Assembly (NCBI RefSeq): GCF_947500995.1
Contig: NZ_CANMUA010000006.1
Coordinates: 186,001-250,000, forward strand
Source: an uncultured Serinicoccus sp.
GTDB taxonomy: Bacteria > Actinomycetota > Actinomycetes > Actinomycetales > Dermatophilaceae
Reading direction: 5' to 3'
DNA length: 64,000 nucleotides
Shown piece by piece: positions 44,581 through 54,815 of this stretch. Position 1 is the stretch's first letter. Each line of letters begins with the position of its first letter. A program made the translations under genes and the position numbers. The notes under the pieces were generated by a model. The model saw only the letters and a program-made list of their open reading frames with translations. It did no database searches and had not been told where the DNA came from.

Positions 44581-45204
44581 TCAGTACGACGGCGGCGTCA
44601 TCGCACCCACGAACACCGTGGGCCGGTCACCGTCGTTGGCGTACCAGTGCGGCACGGACGCCTCGTAGGTCAGGGAGTCACCCTCTCCGAGGCGATAGTG
44701 CTCACCACCCACGACGACCTTCAGCGACCCTTCCACCACCAGCACGCACTCCTCCCCCTCGTGCCGGAAGGGCACGCTCTCGTTGCTCCACCCGGCGGCC
44801 ACCTGGGCGCGGATCATGCCCAGCCGCCCGTTCATGCTGGGCGTGATGAGCTCATAGACCATGTCCCGTTCAGAGAGCAGGAGACGACGTCGGGACTGTG
44901 CCCTGACCAGCTCGGCCAGCTTGGGCTCCGGATCCTGGCCACCGAAGAAGTCACCCACCCGAACCCCCAGCGCGTGGGCGAGCTTGATCAGGGTGTTGTA
45001 CGAGGGGTTGCCGTGGCCGCGCTCGAGCTGGCTGAGCAGGCCCGTGCTCACCCCTGACTCCGCGGCCAGGGCGTTGAGGCTCAGCCCGGACTGCTCGCGA
45101 CGCTCACGCACGATCTGACCGAGCTGCAGCTTCGCGGACTCTTCCGAGCCGTGAGACATCCCCCCGTCGGGGCCTGACTCGTCGGCATCTGTCATCTCAT
45201 CCAT
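44581..45204 (-). CDS. XRE family regulator with cupin domain
   Basis: 207 aa from ATG 45204 (a GTG at 45213 is too close to its AGG to be likely). Helix-turn-helix at about 25-80 (SLNALAAESGVSTGLLSQLERGHGNPS), then a cupin sensor domain (FRHEGEECVLVVEGSLKVVVGGEHYRLGEGDSLTY, VPHWYAN). Family members such as PuuR- or SutR-like proteins sense small metabolites in the cupin. It is upstream of and co-directional with the peptide-ABC/hydrolase operon, whose head carries the two dyads it may bind. Confidence 0.92.
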   Translation of the reverse strand: MDEMTDADESGPDGGMSHGSEESAKLQLGQIVRERREQSGLSLNALAAESGVSTGLLSQLERGHGNPSYNTLIKLAHALGVRVGDFFGGQDPEPKLAELVRAQSRRRLLLSERDMVYELITPSMNGRLGMIRAQVAAGWSNESVPFRHEGEECVLVVEGSLKVVVGGEHYRLGEGDSLTYEASVPHWYANDGDRPTVFVGAMTPPSY

Positions 45205-45299
45205 TTGGCGCACAACCTACATGGGGCGACGAGTCGCACCTGCTGATCACCAGAGCCAGCCGCATGGATCAGCGGCCGGTTCACCCGGAAGCGGTCGCC

Positions 45300-46718
45300 C
45301 TAGTGGGCCAGCAGGACCAGACGCTCCTCCAGAAGTTCCGCGACCGCGTAGGCGACACCTTCGCGTCCCTGGCCACTGTCCTTCACCCCTCCGTAGGGCA
45401 TGTTGTCCGTCCGGAAGGCGGGTGGCAGGTTGACCAGGACGGAGCCGGCCTCGATCTCGCGGGTGCACCGCATCGCAACCCCGAGGTCTCTCGTGAAGAC
45501 CGCGGCGTTGAGCCCGAAGCGGCTCTCGTTGATGCTCCGGATACCGGCGTCCGCGTCTGGCACGGAGATGACCGAGACAACTGGGCCGAAGACCTCGTCG
45601 CAGACGACGCGCGCGGAGGCAGGGACGTCGGCCAGGATGGTAGGTCGTAGCGCCCGGCCCTCACGCGGCCCTCCGGTCACCAGACGTGCACCCGCGGACA
45701 CGGCCTCGTCCACCCATTGCTCGACCCTCTCGAGCGCGGCGGAGCTGATCAGCGGACCGACCGTCACGTCCTCTCGTGCCGGGTCACCGACACCCAGCGC
45801 CTCCGTGGCCACACGCAGCTGCTCCACGAGGGCCTCCACCTGCTCCTCATGGACGTACAACCTCTGGAGAGAGACGCACGCCTGCCCGGAGAACGCGAAG
45901 GCGGCGCTGATCACGCTGTTCACCACGAGGTCGAGGTCGGCATCGGGCATCACCAGGGCGGCCGTGTTGGACCCCAGCTCGAGGACGTGTCGCTTCCGAG
46001 GCGACCTCGCCTTGAGGTCCCACCCCACCTGGGCGGACCCGGTGAAGGTGAGCACCTCGACCCTGTCGTCCTTGATGAGCCGGCCGACCACCTCAGCCGG
46101 GTCCCCGGTGACCATGTTGAGCCGTCCGGGCGGTAGCCCGGCCTCGTGGAGGATGCGCACCAGAGCCCCGGCCGCCAGGGGGGTGCGTTCGGACGGCTTC
46201 AGCACGACCGCGCACCCGGCTGCGAGCGCGGGGCCGATCTTGTGCGCGACCAGGTTCAGCGGGAAGTTGAAGGGAGTGATGGCACCGACCACGCCGACGC
46301 CCTGCGTGAGGGTGTAGGCGGTGACGTCCTCGCCGCCCGGTACCACCGACATGTCCAGGGACTCGCCGGTGATCCGACTGGCCTCGGCGGCCGACAGGCT
46401 CAAGGTCTGCACGCAGCGCGCGACCTCGGCACGGGCCGCGGTGATGGGCTTGCCCGCCTCCCGCCGCAACAGGTCGGCCAGCTCCTCGGACCGCTCGGCC
46501 ATCAACGCGGCGGCCCGGCGCAGGGTTGCCGCACGCTCGTGCGCCGGCCAGGGTACGTCCATGGCGGTCTGGGCGGCGGTGATGGACACCGTGACCTGCT
46601 CGGGCGCGGCGACGGCATAGTGACCGACGACCTCTCCGGTCCATTTGTCGTGGACCTCCCGCGGCGTCCCCGCGCCCTCCTGCCACGCGCCGTCGAGGTA
46701 GAGCTGCTGCTCGATCAT
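45300..46718 (-). CDS. NAD(P)-dependent aldehyde dehydrogenase
   Basis: 472 aa. Rossmann strings GVVGAITPFNFPLNLVAHKIGPALAAGCAVVLKPSE and FTGSAQVGW, general base in VLELGSN, catalytic cysteine in FSGQACVSLQR, and FGPVVSV and MPYGGVKDSGQGREG at the C-terminus. It oxidises an aldehyde to a carboxylate; resemblance to glyceraldehyde or lactaldehyde dehydrogenases suggests an aldose fragment. Start overlaps the upstream dehydrogenase stop (ATGA). In the cluster it would use the aldehyde produced by the YihT-like aldolase. Confidence 0.92.
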   Translation of the reverse strand: MIEQQLYLDGAWQEGAGTPREVHDKWTGEVVGHYAVAAPEQVTVSITAAQTAMDVPWPAHERAATLRRAAALMAERSEELADLLRREAGKPITAARAEVARCVQTLSLSAAEASRITGESLDMSVVPGGEDVTAYTLTQGVGVVGAITPFNFPLNLVAHKIGPALAAGCAVVLKPSERTPLAAGALVRILHEAGLPPGRLNMVTGDPAEVVGRLIKDDRVEVLTFTGSAQVGWDLKARSPRKRHVLELGSNTAALVMPDADLDLVVNSVISAAFAFSGQACVSLQRLYVHEEQVEALVEQLRVATEALGVGDPAREDVTVGPLISSAALERVEQWVDEAVSAGARLVTGGPREGRALRPTILADVPASARVVCDEVFGPVVSVISVPDADAGIRSINESRFGLNAAVFTRDLGVAMRCTREIEAGSVLVNLPPAFRTDNMPYGGVKDSGQGREGVAYAVAELLEERLVLLAH

Positions 46719-47776
46719 GCCTGTCCTTCCAGAGTGGTGATGACCGCCGTGGTGAACTCCTCGGTCGTGGCCCGGCCACCGAGGTCCTTGGTGGCCAACC
46801 CCTCGGACAGCACGGCCTCGAAGGCGGCCTCCACCGCGTCCGCCGCCTCGGGCTGCCCGAGGTGGCGCAGCATCATGGCGCCCGACCAGATCTGACCGAC
46901 GGGGTTGGCGATGCCCTTCCCCGCGATGTCCGGCGCCGAGCCGTGGACCGGCTCGAACATCGACGGATACTCGCCCTCGGGGTTGAGGTTGGCGCTGGGA
47001 GCGACCCCGATGGACCCGGTGATCGCCCCGGCCAGGTCCGAGAGGATGTCGCCGAAGAGGTTGGAGGCGACGACCACGTCGAGCCCCTGGGGCCGCAGCA
47101 CGAACTCGGCGGCGAGGGCGTCGATGAGGACCGAGCGCCACGCCACCCCGGGGTGCTGCGCGGCGACCTCGGAGACGACCTCGTCCCAGAACGGCATCGA
47201 GTAGACGATGCCGTTGGACTTGGTGGCGCTCACGAGGGTGCCCTGGCGCTCTGTCGCGAGCCGGAACGCGTACTGGGCCGCTCGGCTGACTCCTGCCCGG
47301 GTGAAGACGGCCTCCTGGATCGCCACCTCCTCGGGGCGACCGCGGTAGAGCCGGCCACCGACCTCGGAGTACTCACCCTCGACGTTCTCCCGGACGATGA
47401 CGATGTCGAGGGGTCGCTTGTCCTCGAGCGGCGAGTGCACCTGCGGGAGGCTGCGCACCGGACGCAGGTTGATGTACTGCAGGAAGGAGCGTCGGATGAG
47501 GATGAGCAGCCCCCACAACGTCTCGGCGTCCGGTATGCCGGGGGTCCCGACTGCGCCGAGGAAGATGGCGTCGTGCTCCGCGAGCTGGTCGATCCCGTCC
47601 TCCGGCATCATGCGGCCGTGGGCACGGAAGAAGTCCGAGCCCCAGTCGAAGTCCGTCCACGACAGTCGGAACCCGAAGCGGTCGGCGGCGGTGTCCAGCA
47701 CCCTCGTGGCGGCCGGCAGGACCTCCTGCCCGATGCCGTCGCCCGCAAGCGCGGCGATGCGGTAGTGCCCGTTCAT
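46715..47776 (-). CDS. Tartrate dehydrogenase/isopropylmalate dehydrogenase-like enzyme
   Basis: 353-aa beta-hydroxyacid oxidative decarboxylase. RENVEGEYSEVGGRLY, the ATKSNGIVYSMPFWDEV, and the Mg/substrate-binding DALAAEFVLRP...SNLFGDILSDLAGAITGSIGVAPSANLNPEG are typical of the tartrate dehydrogenase / D-malate dehydrogenase branch (TtuC-like), with VIVRENVEGEYS more like this branch than LeuB. It converts a hydroxy-dicarboxylate to a keto acid with NAD. Start overlaps the alcohol dehydrogenase stop. Confidence 0.9.
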   Translation of the reverse strand: MNGHYRIAALAGDGIGQEVLPAATRVLDTAADRFGFRLSWTDFDWGSDFFRAHGRMMPEDGIDQLAEHDAIFLGAVGTPGIPDAETLWGLLILIRRSFLQYINLRPVRSLPQVHSPLEDKRPLDIVIVRENVEGEYSEVGGRLYRGRPEEVAIQEAVFTRAGVSRAAQYAFRLATERQGTLVSATKSNGIVYSMPFWDEVVSEVAAQHPGVAWRSVLIDALAAEFVLRPQGLDVVVASNLFGDILSDLAGAITGSIGVAPSANLNPEGEYPSMFEPVHGSAPDIAGKGIANPVGQIWSGAMMLRHLGQPEAADAVEAAFEAVLSEGLATKDLGGRATTEEFTTAVITTLEGQA

Positions 47777-48798
47777 GCCGGTGCCTCCGTCGGTTGCGGT
47801 CGGATGAAGATCTTGTCGGCCACGCCACCGCGTTGCGCCTCGAGCGCGTCGGGCACGCCGTCCAGGCCGAAGGACCGGGTCCTCAGCTCGTGGAGGGGCA
47901 GCCGCTGCAGCAGCGACACCGCGCGCCGGTGCGTGTAGGGGTTGAGCGCCGTGCCGAGGATGGTGAGCTCGCGCTGGTAGATGTCGTTGGGCGACAGGTC
48001 GGCCCGCTCGGCGGGGTCGCTCACGCCGAACACGAGGATGCGTCCGCCGCGGGCCGACATGCTGACAGCCTGCTCGAGCACCCGAGCGGAGCCCACCGCA
48101 TCGATCACCGCGGCGAAGCCGTCACCACCCGTGGCCGAGGCCACCTCGTGGGTCACGTCCTGGCGGGGGTCCAGGACCACGTCGGCGCCCATCCTCCGTG
48201 CCAGGTCGCGGCGCGTCTCCTGCGGGTCGAACGCCACGACGGGGTAGGCCCCGGCCAGCTTGGCGAGGGCGATCATGATGGCGCCCGCGGGTCCGGCCCC
48301 GAAGACCGCCAGCGGCAGTCCCGAGCTGGGGGCGAGGCGGTCCATGCCGTGGACGCAGCAGGCGATCGGCTCGGTCATCGCCGCGTGCTCCGCCGGCACG
48401 CCGTCCGGGACCGGGTAGGCGAGGGTCGCCGGCACCACCAGACGTTCCGCCATACCTCCGTTCAGGTGCACGCCGGGCGCCTGGCGGTCCGGGCACAGGT
48501 GCTGACGTCCGGTCTGGCACGGGGTGCAGCGCCCGCAGTACAGGTGTGGCTCCACGGTGATGAGCTGGCCGACGTCCAGCCCGTCCACCCGCTCCCCCAC
48601 GGCCAGGACCCGCGCCGCGATCTCGTGCCCGAGGACGACCGGGGGGCGGGACACGAAGTGCCCGGACACGATGTGGGTGTCCGTCCCGCAGACGCCGACC
48701 GCCTCCGGGGCCAGCAGCACGTCCTCCGGTCCTGGCCGGGGGTCAGCGATGTCCTCCAGCAGCAGGGTGCCGTCTCCGTGGTATCGAACCGCCTTCAC
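47773..48798 (-). CDS. Zinc-dependent alcohol dehydrogenase (sorbitol/threonine dehydrogenase-like)
   Basis: 341 aa. GVCGTDTHIV with the catalytic-zinc cysteine, GHEI, the structural-zinc cluster CGRCTPCQTGRQHLC, and the Rossmann GAGPAGAIMIALAKLAGA are intact. Likely oxidises a secondary alcohol such as a polyol or sugar acid. ATG 48798 overlaps the DeoR gene stop. It may form the ketose that the adjacent kinase phosphorylates, or act on a later fragment. Confidence 0.92.
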   Translation of the reverse strand: MKAVRYHGDGTLLLEDIADPRPGPEDVLLAPEAVGVCGTDTHIVSGHFVSRPPVVLGHEIAARVLAVGERVDGLDVGQLITVEPHLYCGRCTPCQTGRQHLCPDRQAPGVHLNGGMAERLVVPATLAYPVPDGVPAEHAAMTEPIACCVHGMDRLAPSSGLPLAVFGAGPAGAIMIALAKLAGAYPVVAFDPQETRRDLARRMGADVVLDPRQDVTHEVASATGGDGFAAVIDAVGSARVLEQAVSMSARGGRILVFGVSDPAERADLSPNDIYQRELTILGTALNPYTHRRAVSLLQRLPLHELRTRSFGLDGVPDALEAQRGGVADKIFIRPQPTEAPA

Positions 48799-49628
48799 TG
48801 ATCCTCCTTGCGCTCGGTGCTGGGGTCCACCAGATGCACGGTGAGCCCGTGCTGGCGGAGCATCTGCTCCGTGGTGGTGGCGATGCCGGAATCCACGACG
48901 ACGGTGTCGATGGTGTCGAGTCCGCAGACTCGGACCATGGCGCTGCCCTCGAACTTCGAGGAGTCGCAGATCAGCACCACCCGGTCAGCCACCTCGATGA
49001 GCCGTCTCTTGATCACCGCGTCGAAGTCGTTGCCGCAGTAGACCCCGCGCTCGTTGACGCTGCTGGCAGACAGGAACACGACCCGCAGCTGCAGGTCCTC
49101 CAGGCAGCGCATGGTCATGGGTCCTGAGAGGGTCTGGGCGTTCTGGTGCAGCTCGCCCCCGAGCATGATGACGCGGGTGTGCTCGTCGTCGAGGAGCGCC
49201 AGGACGTTGGGGATGGAGTTGGTGACGACCGTGGCCCGGCGCTCCGTGGGCCATACCCGTGCCAGCTCCAGTGCCGTCGTCCCCGAGTCCAGCCCGACGG
49301 CACCCTGGTCGGGCACCATCTGCGCAGCGACCAGAGCGATCGACCGCTTCTCCGCCGCCTGGCGCAGCTCTCGGGAGGTGAACTGGCTGCCGACCAGCTC
49401 GCTGGGCGGCAGTGCGCTGACGCCCCCGTGGACGCTACGGAGCGCTCCGTCCTTCTCCAGGCGCTGGACGTCCCGGCGGATCGTCATCTCGGAGACGCCG
49501 AGGAAGTGCGACAGCTCTGAGGTCGTCGCGAACCCCTGCTCCTCGACCCGGCGTTGCAGGCGTGCTCTGCGCTGCGGTGCCGAGCCGTATCTCAGGCCAT
49601 CGTCCAGGGCGTCCGCGGTGTCGCTCAT
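48795..49628 (-). CDS. DeoR/GlpR family transcriptional regulator
   Basis: 277 aa. N-terminal DeoR helix-turn-helix (GFATTSELSHFLGVSEMTIRRDVQRLEKDGALRSVHGG) and a sugar-phosphate sensor domain (ALVAAQMVPDQGAVGLDSGTTALELA, VFLSASSVNERGVYCGNDFDAVIKR). Start ATG 49628 chosen over a GTG at 49646. It lies between the aldolase gene (4-base gap) and the alcohol dehydrogenase. DeoR proteins respond to phosphorylated sugars, matching the kinase and aldolase here; the 37-bp dyad at 51498 is its likely site. Confidence 0.93.
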   Translation of the reverse strand: MSDTADALDDGLRYGSAPQRRARLQRRVEEQGFATTSELSHFLGVSEMTIRRDVQRLEKDGALRSVHGGVSALPPSELVGSQFTSRELRQAAEKRSIALVAAQMVPDQGAVGLDSGTTALELARVWPTERRATVVTNSIPNVLALLDDEHTRVIMLGGELHQNAQTLSGPMTMRCLEDLQLRVVFLSASSVNERGVYCGNDFDAVIKRRLIEVADRVVLICDSSKFEGSAMVRVCGLDTIDTVVVDSGIATTTEQMLRQHGLTVHLVDPSTERKEDQ

Positions 49629-49632
49629 CTCT

Positions 49633-50526
49633 CTAGCCTGCCGCACCCTGGTGGCCGCGGGCCGCCTTCACGATGCCCCGGAGCTCGTCCAACCGGTCGA
49701 CGGACCGCTGGCGCAGACTGGCCGAGCGGTCCGCGTCGAGCACGGTGTCGGCCCAGATGGCGCGTCCCGCGAGGAATCCATGGGCCCCACCCAGGCACGC
49801 CTGCCGCACGGCCTCGGCGAAGTCCTCGGCCTGCACCCCGTTGGACAGCACGACCCACGGGACCTGCAGCCGCGAGGTCAAGAGCTCCGCCTGCGCCTGC
49901 ACTCCCTGGGTCTCTCCGGGCGCGTAGCCGGGGACCTGGGCCTTGTAGAGATCGGCACCGACCGACAGCTCCTCGGCTGCGGCGATGACGGCCGCGTCCC
50001 GCTCACCAGCCGCGAACCCACCCTCGGGCGGCACGACGATTCCCTCCACGACCGCCGCCACGCCGGCATCCGCACACCGCTGGAGGAACGGGTCGACGAT
50101 GGCCCGGCGCTCACCCTCGGCCTCGTCCGCACGCCACATGACCAGCAGCTTCAGCGCCGCAGCGGCAGACTCCTCGATCACGCGTACGGTGACGTGCTCG
50201 TCGAACTCGGTCCGCACGACCGGCCCGCCTGCCGGCTGGTGCAGGATGTCGGCCGCGAGGATGAGCGCACACTCCGGCGCCCTCTGCAGACCAGGCTCGT
50301 CCAGGGCGTACAGACGGTCGAGCAGCACCGCCGTCGCGTGGGGCGTCAGGACGGTGCCCGCCTCGGCCTTGAAGTCCACGAGCGACGCGTCGGGCACCGA
50401 CTGGATCTCGTCGACGCCCGCGAGCATGGCTCGCAGTGACTCACGCTGGTCCAGCGCCAGCATGGCGAGGGTCCCCTCCTCGTCGCCCAGCGGTTGGAGC
50501 CGGGGGGGAAGCACGGTGGCGTTCAT
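49633..50526 (-). CDS. Class I aldolase, YihT/LacD-like
   Basis: 297 aa. The strings AMLALDQRESLR, SLVDFKAEAG, ALKLLVMWRADE, GADLYKAQVPGY and LGGAHGFLAGRAIW match, as I recall, E. coli YihT, the Schiff-base aldolase of sulfofructose-1-phosphate, and more broadly tagatose-bisphosphate aldolase LacD; lysine 195 in GADLYK is the expected Schiff-base residue. It would split a ketose-1-phosphate into dihydroxyacetone phosphate and an aldehyde. It neighbours a PfkB kinase and a DeoR regulator, as YihT does, but no sulfoquinovosidase or isomerase gene is in the window, so the substrate need not be a sulfosugar. Confidence 0.82.
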   Translation of the reverse strand: MNATVLPPRLQPLGDEEGTLAMLALDQRESLRAMLAGVDEIQSVPDASLVDFKAEAGTVLTPHATAVLLDRLYALDEPGLQRAPECALILAADILHQPAGGPVVRTEFDEHVTVRVIEESAAAALKLLVMWRADEAEGERRAIVDPFLQRCADAGVAAVVEGIVVPPEGGFAAGERDAAVIAAAEELSVGADLYKAQVPGYAPGETQGVQAQAELLTSRLQVPWVVLSNGVQAEDFAEAVRQACLGGAHGFLAGRAIWADTVLDADRSASLRQRSVDRLDELRGIVKAARGHQGAAG

Positions 50527-50535
50527 GTGAACCTC

Positions 50536-51420
50536 TCAGGTGGTGGTGGTTGGGGTCTGGTCGCTGAGTCGCCCCAGGAACTCGTCGAGTTGGGGACCGG
50601 TGGGGATGGCAGACCTGCCGTCGAGCCCCTGACAAGCCAGCGCTGCGCACGCGTTGGCACGCTCCACCGCCTCCGCGAGGGGCCGGCCCTGGATGACTCC
50701 GGCCACGAGGGCGCCATGGAAGACGTCTCCCGCCCCCAGCGTGCTGAGCGGGCCAGGCACCCGGTGCCCCGGGGTCTGGTGCAGCCGTCCGTCGACGGAG
50801 TGCCAGGCGCCAGCCGCGCCGTCCGTCACCACCACCCGGTCCGCCCCCTGGCTGCGCATGTCCTGGACGGCGGCGCCGAGGTCTCCCGGCCACAGGGTGC
50901 TGACCATCGGCCTGGACGGGACATAGAGATCGATCCCGTTCAGATCGAGGCTCGGGACCGGGTTGCCGTGGTCGAAGCTGATGAGGCTGTTGCGGCGGTG
51001 CTCTCTCGTCAAGGCCTCGTAGCCGACCTGGTCGACGTGCAACCAGCCCTCGACATCGGGGATGCGCTCGGGCGGCGGGGCGGTCCGGGCGCAGATCTGC
51101 CGTCCGGCTTCCGTCCTGTCGACGATGATCACGCTCGCCCCGCTGGGCACCTCGCGGTCTCGCGTGACGTGGGCGATGTCGACCCCCTCGCTGGTGAGGC
51201 TGTCGAGGATCAGGTCCCCCTCCGCGTCCGCACCCACCCGGCCGCAGAACCCCACGGACACCCCCAGTCTCGCGGCGGCCACCGCCGCCGTGGCTGCCGG
51301 CCCGCCGCCGGCGTGCACGATCTCCCGTGCGACGACCCGCTCGTCCGGACGAGGGGCTCGGTCCACCGACACGACGACGTCCAGGTTGGCGGCCCCGACG
51401 CACAGTAGGTCAAGCCCCAT
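50536..51420 (-). CDS. PfkB family sugar kinase
   Basis: 294 aa. The N-terminal GGGPAATAAVAAARLG glycine-rich lid region and the C-terminal catalytic STLGAGDVFHGALVAG (GAGD anion hole and base) define a PfkB ribokinase-fold kinase; the DVFHGA variant recalls sulfofructose kinase YihV and ketohexokinases. It probably phosphorylates the imported sugar after oxidation or isomerisation, before the aldolase that follows 10 bases downstream. ATG at 51420. Confidence 0.92.
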   Translation of the reverse strand: MGLDLLCVGAANLDVVVSVDRAPRPDERVVAREIVHAGGGPAATAAVAAARLGVSVGFCGRVGADAEGDLILDSLTSEGVDIAHVTRDREVPSGASVIIVDRTEAGRQICARTAPPPERIPDVEGWLHVDQVGYEALTREHRRNSLISFDHGNPVPSLDLNGIDLYVPSRPMVSTLWPGDLGAAVQDMRSQGADRVVVTDGAAGAWHSVDGRLHQTPGHRVPGPLSTLGAGDVFHGALVAGVIQGRPLAEAVERANACAALACQGLDGRSAIPTGPQLDEFLGRLSDQTPTTTT

Positions 51421-51476
51421 CTCGAAGTCCTTTCACAACGCCTGGCCCGGAGAATGACCGACCTCGCCGATCCCTC

Positions 51477-51506
51477 TTGTGCATCTTCGCACATTTATGT
51501 GAGAAT
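51477..51506 (+). promoter_or_regulatory. Possible promoter of the sugar ABC operon
   Basis: TTGTGC (51477-51482), an 18-bp spacer and GAGAAT (51501-51506) are a weak housekeeping-like promoter. A small dyad TGTGC/GCACA (51478-51482/51489-51493) sits inside it. Confidence 0.35.
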
Positions 51507-51534
51507 ACCAACACACTCTGTTGGAACACTCACA
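51498..51534. promoter_or_regulatory. 37-bp nested dyad, candidate operator between kinase and transporter
   Basis: Outer arms TGTGAG (51498-51503) and CTCACA (51529-51534), inner arms CCAAC (51508-51512) and GTTGG (51520-51524), all centred on the same base 51516, with 4-base gaps between the arms. It lies between the divergent kinase and transporter operons, next to the GAGAAT box. The DeoR regulator of the same locus is the probable binder. Confidence 0.7.
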
Positions 51535-51587
51535 GCCGAGTCACCGCCGCTGGCCCGACGACACAGCGGCCCTACCGAGGAGACACG

Positions 51588-52916
51588 ATGACGTCAACGA
51601 CGACTCGCACCACCCGCATCCTGGCGATCCTGCTTCCTGCCGCCCTGCTCACCGGAGCGTGCGGGAGCAACGACGGAGCCGGTCAGGAGAACCCGGCCGA
51701 GGCCACGGGAGAGTTCGACTGGCAGCGGTACTCGGGAACTGAGATCCGCGTCTCCTCGCTGCAGTTCCCGTGGCAGGAGGCGATCGCGGAGCGACTGCCG
51801 GAGTTCGAGGAGCTCACCGGCATCACCGTCGCCCTCGACGCGTTGCCGGAGGAGCAGTTCCGGCAGCGCCTGCAGGTCGAGATGACCTCGGGGTCGGAGG
51901 ACATCGACGTCTTCGCCACGTCCCCGCAGAACGACGCAGCACGATTCGTCCAGCTGGGGTGGTACGAGGACCTCAACCCGATGCTGTCCAACGAGAGCCT
52001 CACCAGCCCCGACTACGACTTCGCGGACTTCGGCGAGGGGCTCATCGAGTCGCAGACCTACGACGGGCAGCTCGTCTCGCTCCCCACCGTCGTCGAGACG
52101 CAGATCTTCTTCTACCGCCCCTCCGTCCTGGAGCAGTACGACCTCGAGGTGCCCGGAACCATCGACGAGCTGGAGTCGGCCGCGGCCACCATCTCCGAGG
52201 ACGGTGAGGTCATCGGCTGGGCGGCCCGAGGCAAGCGTGCGGCGGCGGTGACGCAGATCGCCTCCTTCCTCTACAACTACGGCGCGGAGTTCATCGACGA
52301 GGACGGGCAGGCTGCCTTCGACACCCCGGAAGGGGTCGAGGCCTTCCAGACCTACGGAGACCTGCTCCGCGAGTACGGCCCCGCCGGGTCGGCGAACAAC
52401 TCGTGGGAGGAGCTGCTGGCCCTCTTCCAGCAGGGCCAGATCGCCATGTGGGCGGACAACAGCGGCCAGGTGGCCTCGGTCCTCGACCCGGAGGTGTCCT
52501 CGGTCGCCGACGACGTGGAGTTCGCCCCGATGCCCGCCGGGCCCGCGGGGGACGCCCAGACCTTCTTCGGCTGGTCGGCAGCCATCTCCCCGGAGTCCCA
52601 GGAGAAGGGCGCGTCCTGGCTCTTCCTCCAGTGGGCCACCTCGCCGGAGATGGTGGAGGAGCTCCAGGTGGAGGCGGACGTCGTCGGTGGGCGTGAGTCG
52701 GCCGAGTTCGCCGACGACACCCCCGAGAGCTTCATCGACGCGTTCCAGTCGTCGCTCGCGCGCAGCCGCTCGCAGCTGCCCGGCGTCATCCCGGTGCCGG
52801 AGGTGCGCGACGCCATCGGTCAGGCCATCGTCGTCTCCATCGAGGGTGGCGATGTCGAGGCCGCGGTCTCGACGGCCGCCGAGGAGTTCAACCGCATCGT
52901 GCAGGCGCAGCAGTGA
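51588..52916 (+). CDS. Sugar ABC transporter substrate-binding lipoprotein, family 1
   Basis: 442 aa. ATG 51588 has GAGGAG upstream and gives a lipoprotein signal with lipobox TGAC near residue 25; longer frames have no signal. Extracellular solute-binding family 1 (maltose-binding-like) strings: FEELTGITVALDALPEEQFRQRL, VQLGWYEDLNPML, LPTVVETQIFFYR, LFQQGQIAMWADNSG. It heads the sugar ABC operon and is divergent from the kinase. Ligand unknown. Confidence 0.93.
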   Translation: MTSTTTRTTRILAILLPAALLTGACGSNDGAGQENPAEATGEFDWQRYSGTEIRVSSLQFPWQEAIAERLPEFEELTGITVALDALPEEQFRQRLQVEMTSGSEDIDVFATSPQNDAARFVQLGWYEDLNPMLSNESLTSPDYDFADFGEGLIESQTYDGQLVSLPTVVETQIFFYRPSVLEQYDLEVPGTIDELESAAATISEDGEVIGWAARGKRAAAVTQIASFLYNYGAEFIDEDGQAAFDTPEGVEAFQTYGDLLREYGPAGSANNSWEELLALFQQGQIAMWADNSGQVASVLDPEVSSVADDVEFAPMPAGPAGDAQTFFGWSAAISPESQEKGASWLFLQWATSPEMVEELQVEADVVGGRESAEFADDTPESFIDAFQSSLARSRSQLPGVIPVPEVRDAIGQAIVVSIEGGDVEAAVSTAAEEFNRIVQAQQ

Positions 52917-52980
52917 CCTTCGCCCACGCGCGGCCCGGCAGAGGCGGCACCACCCGGGCGGGACGAGGAGGTGGACGCAC

Positions 52981-53964
52981 GTGACCCCTCCGTCGACGAG
53001 AGCACGTGAGCGCCGGGTCCAGGACGAGCCTCGTCAGGACCCGGGCCAGGGAGCAGAAGAGCGGCGACGAGGCTGGCTGTCGGGGGTGAACGACGTCATC
53101 GACCGACATGTCAAGTCGGTCTTCGCGACCCCGGCCGTGGCCTTCGTCGTGCTCATGATGATCTTCCCGATCGCCTACACGCTCTACCTGTCGCTGCACG
53201 ACTGGTACGGCAGCACCACCAGCCCGCCCACGTTCGTCGGGGTCGACAACTATGTGCGCATCTTCTCCAACGATCCGCGCTTCTGGGACGCCCTCGGCAG
53301 GACTCTGCTGTTCACCGGGCTCGCCGTGTCGATCCAGACGGTCCTGGGAGTGGCCATCGCGGTGCTGCTGCACCGGCAGTTCGCCGGCCGAGGACTCGTC
53401 CGCAGCCTCATGCTCCTCCCGATGATCGCCACCCCCGTCGCGGTGGCACTGGTCTGGCGGCTGCTGTTCCAGCCCGAGCTCGGGCTGCTGAACGACATGC
53501 TGATGGCGGTCGGGCTGTCGCCCTCCGCCTGGGTGGCCGACTCCTCCATCGCACTCTTCTGCCTGGTGCTGGTGGATGTCTGGGAGTGGACCTCGCTCAT
53601 CACCCTCGTGACGTTGTCCGGGCTGGTGGCCCTGCCGACCGAGCCGATGGAGGCTGCCGTGGTCGACGGCGCCAGCGCCTGGCAGCGGTTCTGGCTGATC
53701 ACGCTTCCCATGGTGCGGCCGGTGATCGTCATCGCGGTGGTCTTCCGGCTGATCGAGGCGCTCAAGACGTTCGACCCCATCATCGTCATCACCCAGGGCG
53801 GCCCGGGGTTCGCCACGGAGACCCTCAACATCTACATCTACAACACGGCGTTCCAGTACCAGCAGCTCGGATATGCCTCAGCGCTGCTGCTGGTCTTCTT
53901 CGCCATCGTCTTCACCCTCGCGGCCGTCACCCTCAGCTTCCGCCGCGGAAAGGCCTCCTCATGA
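52981..53964 (+). CDS. Sugar ABC transporter permease (MalF-like)
   Basis: 327 aa. GTG 52981 has GAGGAGGT 8 bases upstream and a long charged N-terminus (about 40 residues) before the first helix. Six predicted helices; the EAA loop EAAVVDGASAWQRFWLITLPMVRP is the permease coupling motif. Its stop overlaps the MalG-like start (ATGA). No ATPase gene is nearby, so the shared sugar ATPase (MsiK type) is probably used, as is common in actinobacteria. Confidence 0.92.
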   Translation: MTPPSTRARERRVQDEPRQDPGQGAEERRRGWLSGVNDVIDRHVKSVFATPAVAFVVLMMIFPIAYTLYLSLHDWYGSTTSPPTFVGVDNYVRIFSNDPRFWDALGRTLLFTGLAVSIQTVLGVAIAVLLHRQFAGRGLVRSLMLLPMIATPVAVALVWRLLFQPELGLLNDMLMAVGLSPSAWVADSSIALFCLVLVDVWEWTSLITLVTLSGLVALPTEPMEAAVVDGASAWQRFWLITLPMVRPVIVIAVVFRLIEALKTFDPIIVITQGGPGFATETLNIYIYNTAFQYQQLGYASALLLVFFAIVFTLAAVTLSFRRGKASS

Positions 53965-54815
53965 TGACGGAAACACAGCAGCAGGCGCGCCGGGCATACC
54001 GGCGCCGGGCCCTGGTACGCACGGCGGGGTTCTACCTCCTCCTGGCGTTCGTCCTCGCCCCGTTCATGTTCGTCTTCCTCTACATGGTCGCGACGTCGTT
54101 CAAGAGCCCGCTCGACATCAACTCGGGGTCGTTCACCCTGTGGTTCACCCCCACCCTGGACAACTACCGAGACGTGCTGCTCGGGACGGACTTCCTCGCC
54201 TTCACGGTCAACTCCTTGGTGGTCGCCGGGTGCTCGACGCTCATCGCGTTGGTCATCGGCCTGCCCGCGGCGTTCGCCATCGCTCGCTACAAGATGCCCC
54301 GGCTGGGTGCCGTGATCCTGTCCTCCCGCATCACCCCGGGGATCGCCTTCCTCATCCCCTGGTTCATCATCTTCAGCCAGGTCGGTTGGATCGACACCTA
54401 CCAGGCGCTCATCCTCAGCCACCTGCTGGTCAACCTGCCGTTGGTCACCTATCTCATGGTTAGCTTCTTCGAGGACTTCCCGGAGGAGCTCCTGGACTCG
54501 GCCGCGGTCGACGGCGCCTCGGCGGTCGGTACCTTCGTGAAGGTCGTCCTCCCGGTCACCAGGGGCGGCATCGCCTCGGCAGCCATCCTCGGCTTCGTCT
54601 TCAGCTGGAACAACTTCCTCTTCTCGGTCGTCATCGCCGGCCGGGACACGCGGACCCTCCCGGTCGCGGTCTTCGAGTTCATGTCCTACGGCAGCATCAA
54701 CTGGGGTGCCATCTGTGCGGCGGCGACCGTGATGACGCTGCCCGTCATCGTGCTGGCCCTCCTCGTCCAGCGGCACATCGTCGAGGGCCTGGCCGGGGGC
54801 TCGCTCAAGGGCTGA
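53961..54815 (+). CDS. Sugar ABC transporter permease (MalG-like)
   Basis: 284 aa with six predicted helices. The EAA motif is LDSAAVDGASAVGTFVKVVLPVTRGG, followed by SWNNFLFSVVIAG, both typical of MalG-type permeases. ATG 53961 overlaps the MalF-like stop. Last gene of the sugar ABC operon, followed by a terminator-like hairpin. No ATPase is encoded here. Confidence 0.92.
   Translation: MMTETQQQARRAYRRRALVRTAGFYLLLAFVLAPFMFVFLYMVATSFKSPLDINSGSFTLWFTPTLDNYRDVLLGTDFLAFTVNSLVVAGCSTLIALVIGLPAAFAIARYKMPRLGAVILSSRITPGIAFLIPWFIIFSQVGWIDTYQALILSHLLVNLPLVTYLMVSFFEDFPEELLDSAAVDGASAVGTFVKVVLPVTRGGIASAAILGFVFSWNNFLFSVVIAGRDTRTLPVAVFEFMSYGSINWGAICAAATVMTLPVIVLALLVQRHIVEGLAGGSLKG

Follow-up and report, generated by a model that had tools for sequence, protein, structure and literature searches.

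The closest described systems to the gene set considered here come from sulfosugar and carnitine catabolism. The oxidative sulfo-Embden-Meyerhof-Parnas (sulfo-EMP) cluster of Arthrobacter, in the accessible part of its report (PMC8873060), carries YihS, YihV, YihT, ATP-binding cassette (ABC) transporter and TauE genes, with a GabD homologue serving as the sulfolactaldehyde (SLA) dehydrogenase. In carnitine degradation, malic semialdehyde is converted to D-malate and then to pyruvate and CO2 by an aldehyde dehydrogenase (ALDH) followed by a beta-decarboxylating dehydrogenase, a proven pair according to the available part of the report (PMC11353897). We analyzed nine genes at positions 45300-54815 of a 64,000-nucleotide stretch (the window) from an uncultured Serinicoccus sp., whose draft genome comprises 3.8 Mb in 45 contigs. 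Our tentative reading is that these genes form a catabolic operon for a non-sulfonated substrate, working in the manner of sulfoglycolysis, for which the release of a four-carbon (C4) aldehyde from a seven-carbon (C7) ketose would be the best fit, the identity of the substrate being putative.

Like the Arthrobacter cluster, as far as the accessible part of PMC8873060 describes it, the window set combines ABC import, a PfkB-family kinase, a YihT-family aldolase and an ALDH acting after the aldolase. Unlike it, the window cluster contains no YihS, TauE or GabD-type ALDH, its aldolase belongs to another clade, and a TtuC-type dehydrogenase and a zinc-dependent alcohol dehydrogenase (Zn-ADH) are added. 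With the carnitine module, as given in the available part of PMC11353897, it shares an ALDH gene lying beside a beta-decarboxylating dehydrogenase gene, here with a 4-nt overlap. However, the nine genes include no carnitine monooxygenase, the ALDH lacks the Arg pair of the GabD/succinate semialdehyde dehydrogenase (SSADH) type, and the TtuC motif differs.

Gene content and conservation of the operon

All of the genes that the sequence-only reading had named are present and intact (Table 1), with Pfam and NCBIfam in agreement. Six lie on the minus strand, transcribed in the order PfkB, aldolase, DeoR, Zn-ADH, TtuC and ALDH, and three are divergent on the plus strand, in the order solute-binding protein (SBP), MalF and MalG. 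As three neighbouring pairs (DeoR/Zn-ADH, Zn-ADH/TtuC and TtuC/ALDH) overlap by 4 nt, the arrangement is operon-like. The Pfam domains of the proteins are Aldedh, Iso_dh, ADH_zinc_N/ADH_N, DeoRC/HTH_DeoR, DeoC/LacD aldolase, PfkB, SBP_bac_1 and, twice, BPD_transp_1, and no ATPase gene lies within the cluster. The 167 bp between the two divergent gene sets hold an inverted repeat.

For the comparison of loci (numbered with the prefix L), presence was counted by tblastn (E <= 1e-10) inside fetched stretches of up to 10 kb on either side, since gene calls by a simple script missed genes in some loci; it should also be noted that several loci are cut by contig ends. Loci were grouped by aldolase clade, as detailed below. 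The 28 window-clade loci represent 26 distinct ones (L034/L066 and L035/L070 are same-genome pairs) and include two long-branch Pseudomonadota loci, L071 and L082, with neither TtuC nor ABC matches. The 17 YihT-clade loci represent 16 distinct ones (L048/L079 being a same-genome pair), and 13 tree rows fall outside both counts (L036, L038, L042, L045, L049, L067, L068, L074, L076-L078, L080 and L087).

The aldolase was found at E <= 1e-20 in 44 of 394 genomes of the class, from which 20 regions were fetched (for family f33, two, L036 and L038, of 15 matching genomes), while a scan of genome contigs with a six-aldolase alignment gave 33 loci. TtuC, at E <= 1e-90, is present in 62 of the 394 genomes, yet 18 of the 33 loci from the contig scan hold it inside their fetched stretch, a co-occurrence beyond chance. 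TtuC accompanies the aldolase in 23/28 window-clade loci but in only 1/17 YihT-clade loci; the corresponding counts are 21/28 and 0/17 for the window-type ALDH, and 13/28 and 0/17 for a HUMPS-family gene, which resembles hexulose-6-phosphate synthase and 3-keto-gulonate-6-phosphate decarboxylase at scores under the cut-offs. The sequence-only reading had suggested seeking the same gene order in other actinobacteria. The unit ABC-PfkB-aldolase-DeoR-TtuC-ALDH recurs there, in about nine families named in the tree. The gene set is a real, conserved unit.

Three layouts recur. In type A (the window, L051, L052, L062 and L069), the ABC genes are divergent and the Zn-ADH gene lies between DeoR and TtuC. 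In type B, ABC-PfkB-aldolase-DeoR, usually TtuC and often ALDH come first, and a divergent module follows. In it are two TIM barrels resembling xylose isomerase, the HUMPS-family gene, two Gfo/Idh/MocA genes, another Zn-ADH and, in most cases, a glyoxalase-like gene (L054:14196-20640, and likewise in L032, L034/L066, L053, L055-L057, L061, L063-L065 and L073). One of these TIM barrels matches 2zds (E 4.6e-146) and 8ro4 (E 4.7e-33), the latter titled 2-hydroxy-3-keto-glucal hydratase. In type C (L059, L060, L081 and L083), a further Zn-ADH occurs with a short-chain dehydrogenase/reductase (SDR) and a GH2 protein, and three of the four loci add a TIM barrel. Assignment of this GH2 protein as a glucuronide enzyme is unsupported, as the N-x-K motif, which we take to be a sign of beta-glucuronidases, is absent from the three sequences inspected (L059, L081 and L083). 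The layouts suggest one core fed by differing upstream modules.

The Zn-ADH, which had been placed among the pathway enzymes, holds that place in the window and the other type A loci, the only ones with a Zn-ADH of the window type between DeoR and TtuC. In the remaining loci, the Zn-ADH is of another kind and stands next to other modules, or, in 7/28, is missing. The Zn-ADH is therefore an accessory and not a fixed member of the set.

Table 1 Features of the operon, with positions in the window and the basis of each assignment.
Feature	Position	Strand	Basis
Aldehyde dehydrogenase (ALDH)	45300..46718	-	Pfam, NCBIfam, residue alignment
TtuC/tartrate-D-malate-type beta-decarboxylating dehydrogenase, specialised subfamily by its motif, DAETLWG	46715..47776	-	NCBIfam, motif
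Zinc-dependent alcohol dehydrogenase, threonine-dehydrogenase/IolM-like (under cut-offs), accessory	47773..48798	-	NCBIfam, locus comparison
DeoR-family regulator	48795..49628	-	Pfam, NCBIfam
Class I aldolase (DeoC/LacD, YihT-like), own clade	49633..50526	-	Structure-database matches, tree
PfkB-family sugar kinase	50536..51420	-	Pfam; nearest solved relative sulfofructose kinase
Imperfect inverted repeat, 16 nt, 81%, 5-nt spacer; candidate operator	51498..51534	.	Divergent intergenic region
Family 1 solute-binding protein (SBP)	51588..52916	+	Pfam; nearest solved relative 4rya
ABC permease, MalF type	about 52981..53964 (start codon uncertain)	+	Pfam, NCBIfam
ABC permease, MalG type	53961..54815	+	Pfam, NCBIfam

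Separation from sulfoglycolysis

As the sequence-only reading had remarked, the kinase and the aldolase recall sulfo-EMP enzymes. The best solved relatives of the aldolase are YihT and sulfofructosephosphate aldolase (1to3, 7ag7 and 7ag1; E 1.1e-52 to 3.5e-51), and that of the kinase is sulfofructose kinase (7ag6, E 3.1e-34). The aldolase tree, however, separates the two groups. Among its 60 rows, 56 of them different, the window clade takes 29 (support 97/90) and the YihT clade 18 (support 100/99), the latter holding Salmonella YihT, the YihS locus L044 and the loci with a GabD-type ALDH. Lys195 of the window aldolase aligns with the invariant Lys193 of YihT, one of 19 positions that are invariant in both clades. 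In contrast, R11, S13, F69, F93, L154, G185 and S227 (Salmonella YihT numbering), which are fixed in 16/16 YihT-clade aldolases, are replaced in most of the 26 window-clade ones. A locus labelled uncultured Serinicoccus has an aldolase 98% identical to that of the window.

The partner genes divide in the same manner. None of the 28 window-clade loci has YihS, GH31, a GabD-type ALDH or TauE, as compared to 2/17, 7/17, 9/17 and 6/17 YihT-clade loci, respectively; apart from that of Salmonella, the GH31 matches share just 27-30% identity with YihQ. The SLA reductase YihU also gave 0/28 in the fetched stretches. The absence of sulfoquinovosidase, isomerase and SLA reductase that had been noted before thus stands for the cluster. 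For the isomerase it does not extend to the genome, which encodes elsewhere a YihS-family protein (39% identity to the Salmonella enzyme). It belongs to a separate sugar cluster (L139:9467-16851), whose other genes encode an SDR, a LacD-type aldolase, a kinase of the FGGY type and the Peripla_BP_4 and BPD_transp_2 parts of an ABC transporter. Given the separate aldolase clade, the replaced residues and the missing partner genes, we rejected sulfo-EMP for the window set, in line with the earlier view that its pathway is a distinct one.

The dehydrogenase pair

The window TtuC passes the NCBIfam cut-off for tartrate dehydrogenase (TIGR02089: 514 bits vs 470.4). Just ahead of the first conserved arginine, the motif D[VTA][EQ]TLWG is found in 22/23 operon copies, the exception being Cereibacter with DSVSLHG, whereas 34/35 copies elsewhere have DHx[ST]LWG, the exception being L094 with DAESLWG. 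In these counts, the copies of the window and of L051 were counted apart, L097 (a cropped window copy) was placed in the operon group and L002-L006 were excluded as cropped duplicates. The use of DHx[ST]LWG as a tartrate-dehydrogenase criterion was devised in this work and is not a published one; the window copy, with DAETLWG, lies outside it. The arginine-bearing motifs are retained in the operon copies. Judged by its motif, the operon TtuC is a specialised subfamily, and we read the motif change as a probable change of substrate specificity, with contact between these residues and the substrate being putative. Two of the canonical copies, L095 and L096, lie beside a tripartite tricarboxylate transporter.

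The ALDH is less easily placed. Its best NCBIfam matches are lactaldehyde dehydrogenase, SafD and phosphonoacetaldehyde dehydrogenase, all under the cut-off, and its nearest solved relatives include ALDH21, aldehyde dehydrogenases whose substrate is not stated and, at a lower rank, 8s33. The last is the malic semialdehyde dehydrogenase entry, and that enzyme, by the available part of its report, binds its substrate via Arg166, Arg284 and Ser447 (PMC11353897). For RlGabD, the accessible part of the report proposes that Arg171 and Arg289 bind the sulfonate (PMC10599462), and we take Arg166/Arg284 to be equivalent to this RlGabD/SSADH pair. The pair is present in all 12 GabD/SSADH-type rows examined. 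The window ALDH has His/Ala in its place. An argument for a neutral aldehyde from this loss is, however, weakened by two other arginines that are almost invariant in window-type ALDHs, R107 in 26/27 rows and R442 in 25/27 (numbering of P0001), where the 27 rows include duplicates and a few non-operon rows. ALDH21 and PhnY presumably bind anions at these two positions, and a methanogen lactaldehyde dehydrogenase presumably carries both arginines as well.

Several neighbouring genes should also be mentioned. An XRE-cupin regulator (44581-45213, minus strand; best NCBIfam match PuuR, under cut-off) lies directly downstream of the operon ALDH gene. On the other side, an adjoining catabolic cluster runs from 54855 to the end of the window and on to about position 253800 of the contig. 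It holds two CoA-transferase family III genes, an enoyl-CoA hydratase, an HpcH/HpaI-type aldolase, SBP_bac_5-type ABC genes and an ALDH that is 45% like that of the operon, and just past the end of the window comes a second TtuC (63%), with DHVSLWG as its motif.

Proposed pathway and alternatives

In the proposed pathway, the ABC system would import the substrate, and the Zn-ADH in the window, or another feeder module in other loci, would yield a ketose. Based on the protein families, PfkB would then phosphorylate C1 and the class I aldolase would cleave the ketose-1-phosphate to dihydroxyacetone phosphate (DHAP) and an aldehyde. The ALDH would oxidise the aldehyde to an acid, which the specialised TtuC-type dehydrogenase would oxidatively decarboxylate, an order we suggest because of the malic semialdehyde precedent in carnitine degradation (PMC11353897, available part). 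The number of carbons follows from another consideration. In the TtuC family, the chemistry depends on a beta-hydroxy acid with roughly four carbons. A C4 aldehyde (malic semialdehyde, tartaric semialdehyde or a tetrose) is accordingly the most likely one, which would make the ketose C7. A narrower form of this proposal is a carboxylate mirror of sulfoglycolysis, in which a C7 sugar acid, with a carboxylate in place of the sulfonate, would give DHAP and malic or tartaric semialdehyde, then D-malate or tartrate and, finally, the decarboxylation product. We consider this form improbable; were it true, two C3 units would carry six of the seven carbons into central metabolism and the seventh would be lost as CO2.

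The proposal has some drawbacks that need to be considered. The nearest solved relatives of the kinase and the aldolase are, by sequence comparison, sulfosugar enzymes, and the residues of the ALDH are compatible with an anionic as well as a neutral aldehyde. Moreover, TtuC and ALDH, which had been counted in the set and are found there in most loci, can each be missing. In three of ten genomes checked (L064, L065 and L083), the kinase-aldolase operon is kept but a TtuC of the operon kind is lacking, with only a 42-46% relative present; similar relatives (43-47%) also occur in the other seven genomes. In L055-L057, TtuC is present but the fetched stretch holds no ALDH of the window type; for L055 and L057, the closest one in the rest of the genome has 44-45% identity. 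The ALDH and TtuC steps thus need not be consecutive.

Cereibacter sphaeroides offers both support for the proposal, through a gene set of similar content, and a further difficulty, through the differences in its genes. Its plasmids pRSKD131A (strain KD131) and pB (strain 2.4.1) hold DeoR, SBP, two permeases, UgpC, Zn-ADH, ALDH, TtuC, aldolase and sugar kinase genes in one run, the same kinds of gene as in the window, with the Cereibacter set annotated from sequence alone. Identities between KD131 and window proteins are 55% for TtuC, 43% for the aldolase, 42% for Zn-ADH, 39% for ALDH, 32% for SBP and kinase and 27% for DeoR. Unlike the window, the plasmid set includes UgpC, has a different gene order, and has the deviating TtuC motif given above in place of the operon one. 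The plasmid ALDH, which scores above the TIGR01780 cut-off, is of the SSADH type with Arg/Arg at the pair, and the plasmid aldolase falls in the YihT clade. As aldolase clade, ALDH type and TtuC motif all differ, either the set would have been assembled twice or the Cereibacter cluster would serve a related but different substrate. In a separate group of loci (L041, L047 and L048/L079), a YihT-clade aldolase occurs with a PfkA-type kinase (PF00365) in the place of PfkB, a Zn-ADH and an SBP 36% like that of Cereibacter; L041 and L047 also have a GabD-type ALDH together with a relative of the mandelate-racemase type, and L041 a TauE-like match.

Among the alternatives, a pentulose-1-phosphate route, which we hold to be rather unlikely, would cleave a C5 ketose to DHAP and glycolaldehyde, the latter being oxidised to glycolate, and would place TtuC upstream, as a 3-dehydrogenase decarboxylating a hexonate to the pentulose. 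Aldolases of the sister clade lie in arabinofuranosidase-type clusters (GH127 in L068 and L074, Alpha-L-AF_C in L076 and L077), with xylulokinase-like FGGY kinases in L068, L074 and L076. Like the window, L074, L076 and L077 combine a related aldolase with the same ALDH type, but they have arabinofuranosidase genes and no TtuC, and L074 and L076 add the FGGY kinase and an aldo-keto reductase. This context suggests pentuloses and glycolaldehyde as possible substrate and product in those clusters, with TtuC placed elsewhere, and also speaks against a C7 ketose. Lactonase-like (SGL) genes near L059, L063, L067 and L081, the HUMPS-family gene of the 13 loci and the dispensability of TtuC fit this route as well. 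However, we know of no member of the subfamily of TtuC, isopropylmalate dehydrogenase and isocitrate dehydrogenase that acts on hexonates, and as the window set includes neither a lactonase nor a HUMPS gene, it offers no clear source of a hexonate.

An unlikely route by our estimate begins with a hexitol, oxidised to a ketohexose, phosphorylated at C1 and cleaved to DHAP and glyceraldehyde, with TtuC handling the resulting glycerate. The SBPs of both the window and Cereibacter have as their best solved match 4rya, titled ABC transporter substrate binding protein (Sorbitol), and lactaldehyde dehydrogenase is the best NCBIfam match of the ALDH. Yet glycerate, to our understanding, does not have the carboxylate arrangement used by the TtuC family, and the genome has glycerate kinase genes, such that a special enzyme for D-glycerate would be unneeded.

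Finally, a variant sulfo-EMP with its isomerase encoded elsewhere, SLA oxidised to sulfolactate and TtuC acting on sulfolactate as a D-malate analogue, could draw on the sulfo-EMP-like kinase and aldolase, the distant YihS-family gene, the Cereibacter set (whose ALDH carries the Arg pair proposed for SLA dehydrogenases) and a Paracoccus sulfofucose cluster with PF00294, PF01791 and threonine-dehydrogenase-like proteins (of which, in the accessible part of PMC12421959, the first two were not induced and the last was induced, inactive on SLA and of unassigned role), but it is very improbable given the aldolase clade and residues, the 0/28 counts, the Arg pair lost from the window ALDH and the aldolase and kinase that the YihS-like gene has in its own cluster.

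We therefore return to the proposed C7 route. As had been claimed, no published pathway with this gene set was found in the openly accessible literature, nor was anything specific found there on a pentulose-1-phosphate or heptitol pathway with it. What is proposed as new is a putative ketose-1-phosphate aldolase pathway with specialised oxidative decarboxylation. Its conserved core (kinase, aldolase, specialised TtuC and ALDH) is joined to at least three transporter or upstream sets across several actinobacterial families. This recurrence, together with the equivalent plasmid set of Cereibacter sphaeroides 2.4.1, points to a carbon source in the environment for which no account of its breakdown was found in the searchable literature. 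As 2.4.1 is a tractable laboratory strain, the plasmid set makes the question of the substrate testable. For annotation, it follows that YihT- and YihV-like genes should not be assigned to sulfoquinovose degradation without a check of their clade.

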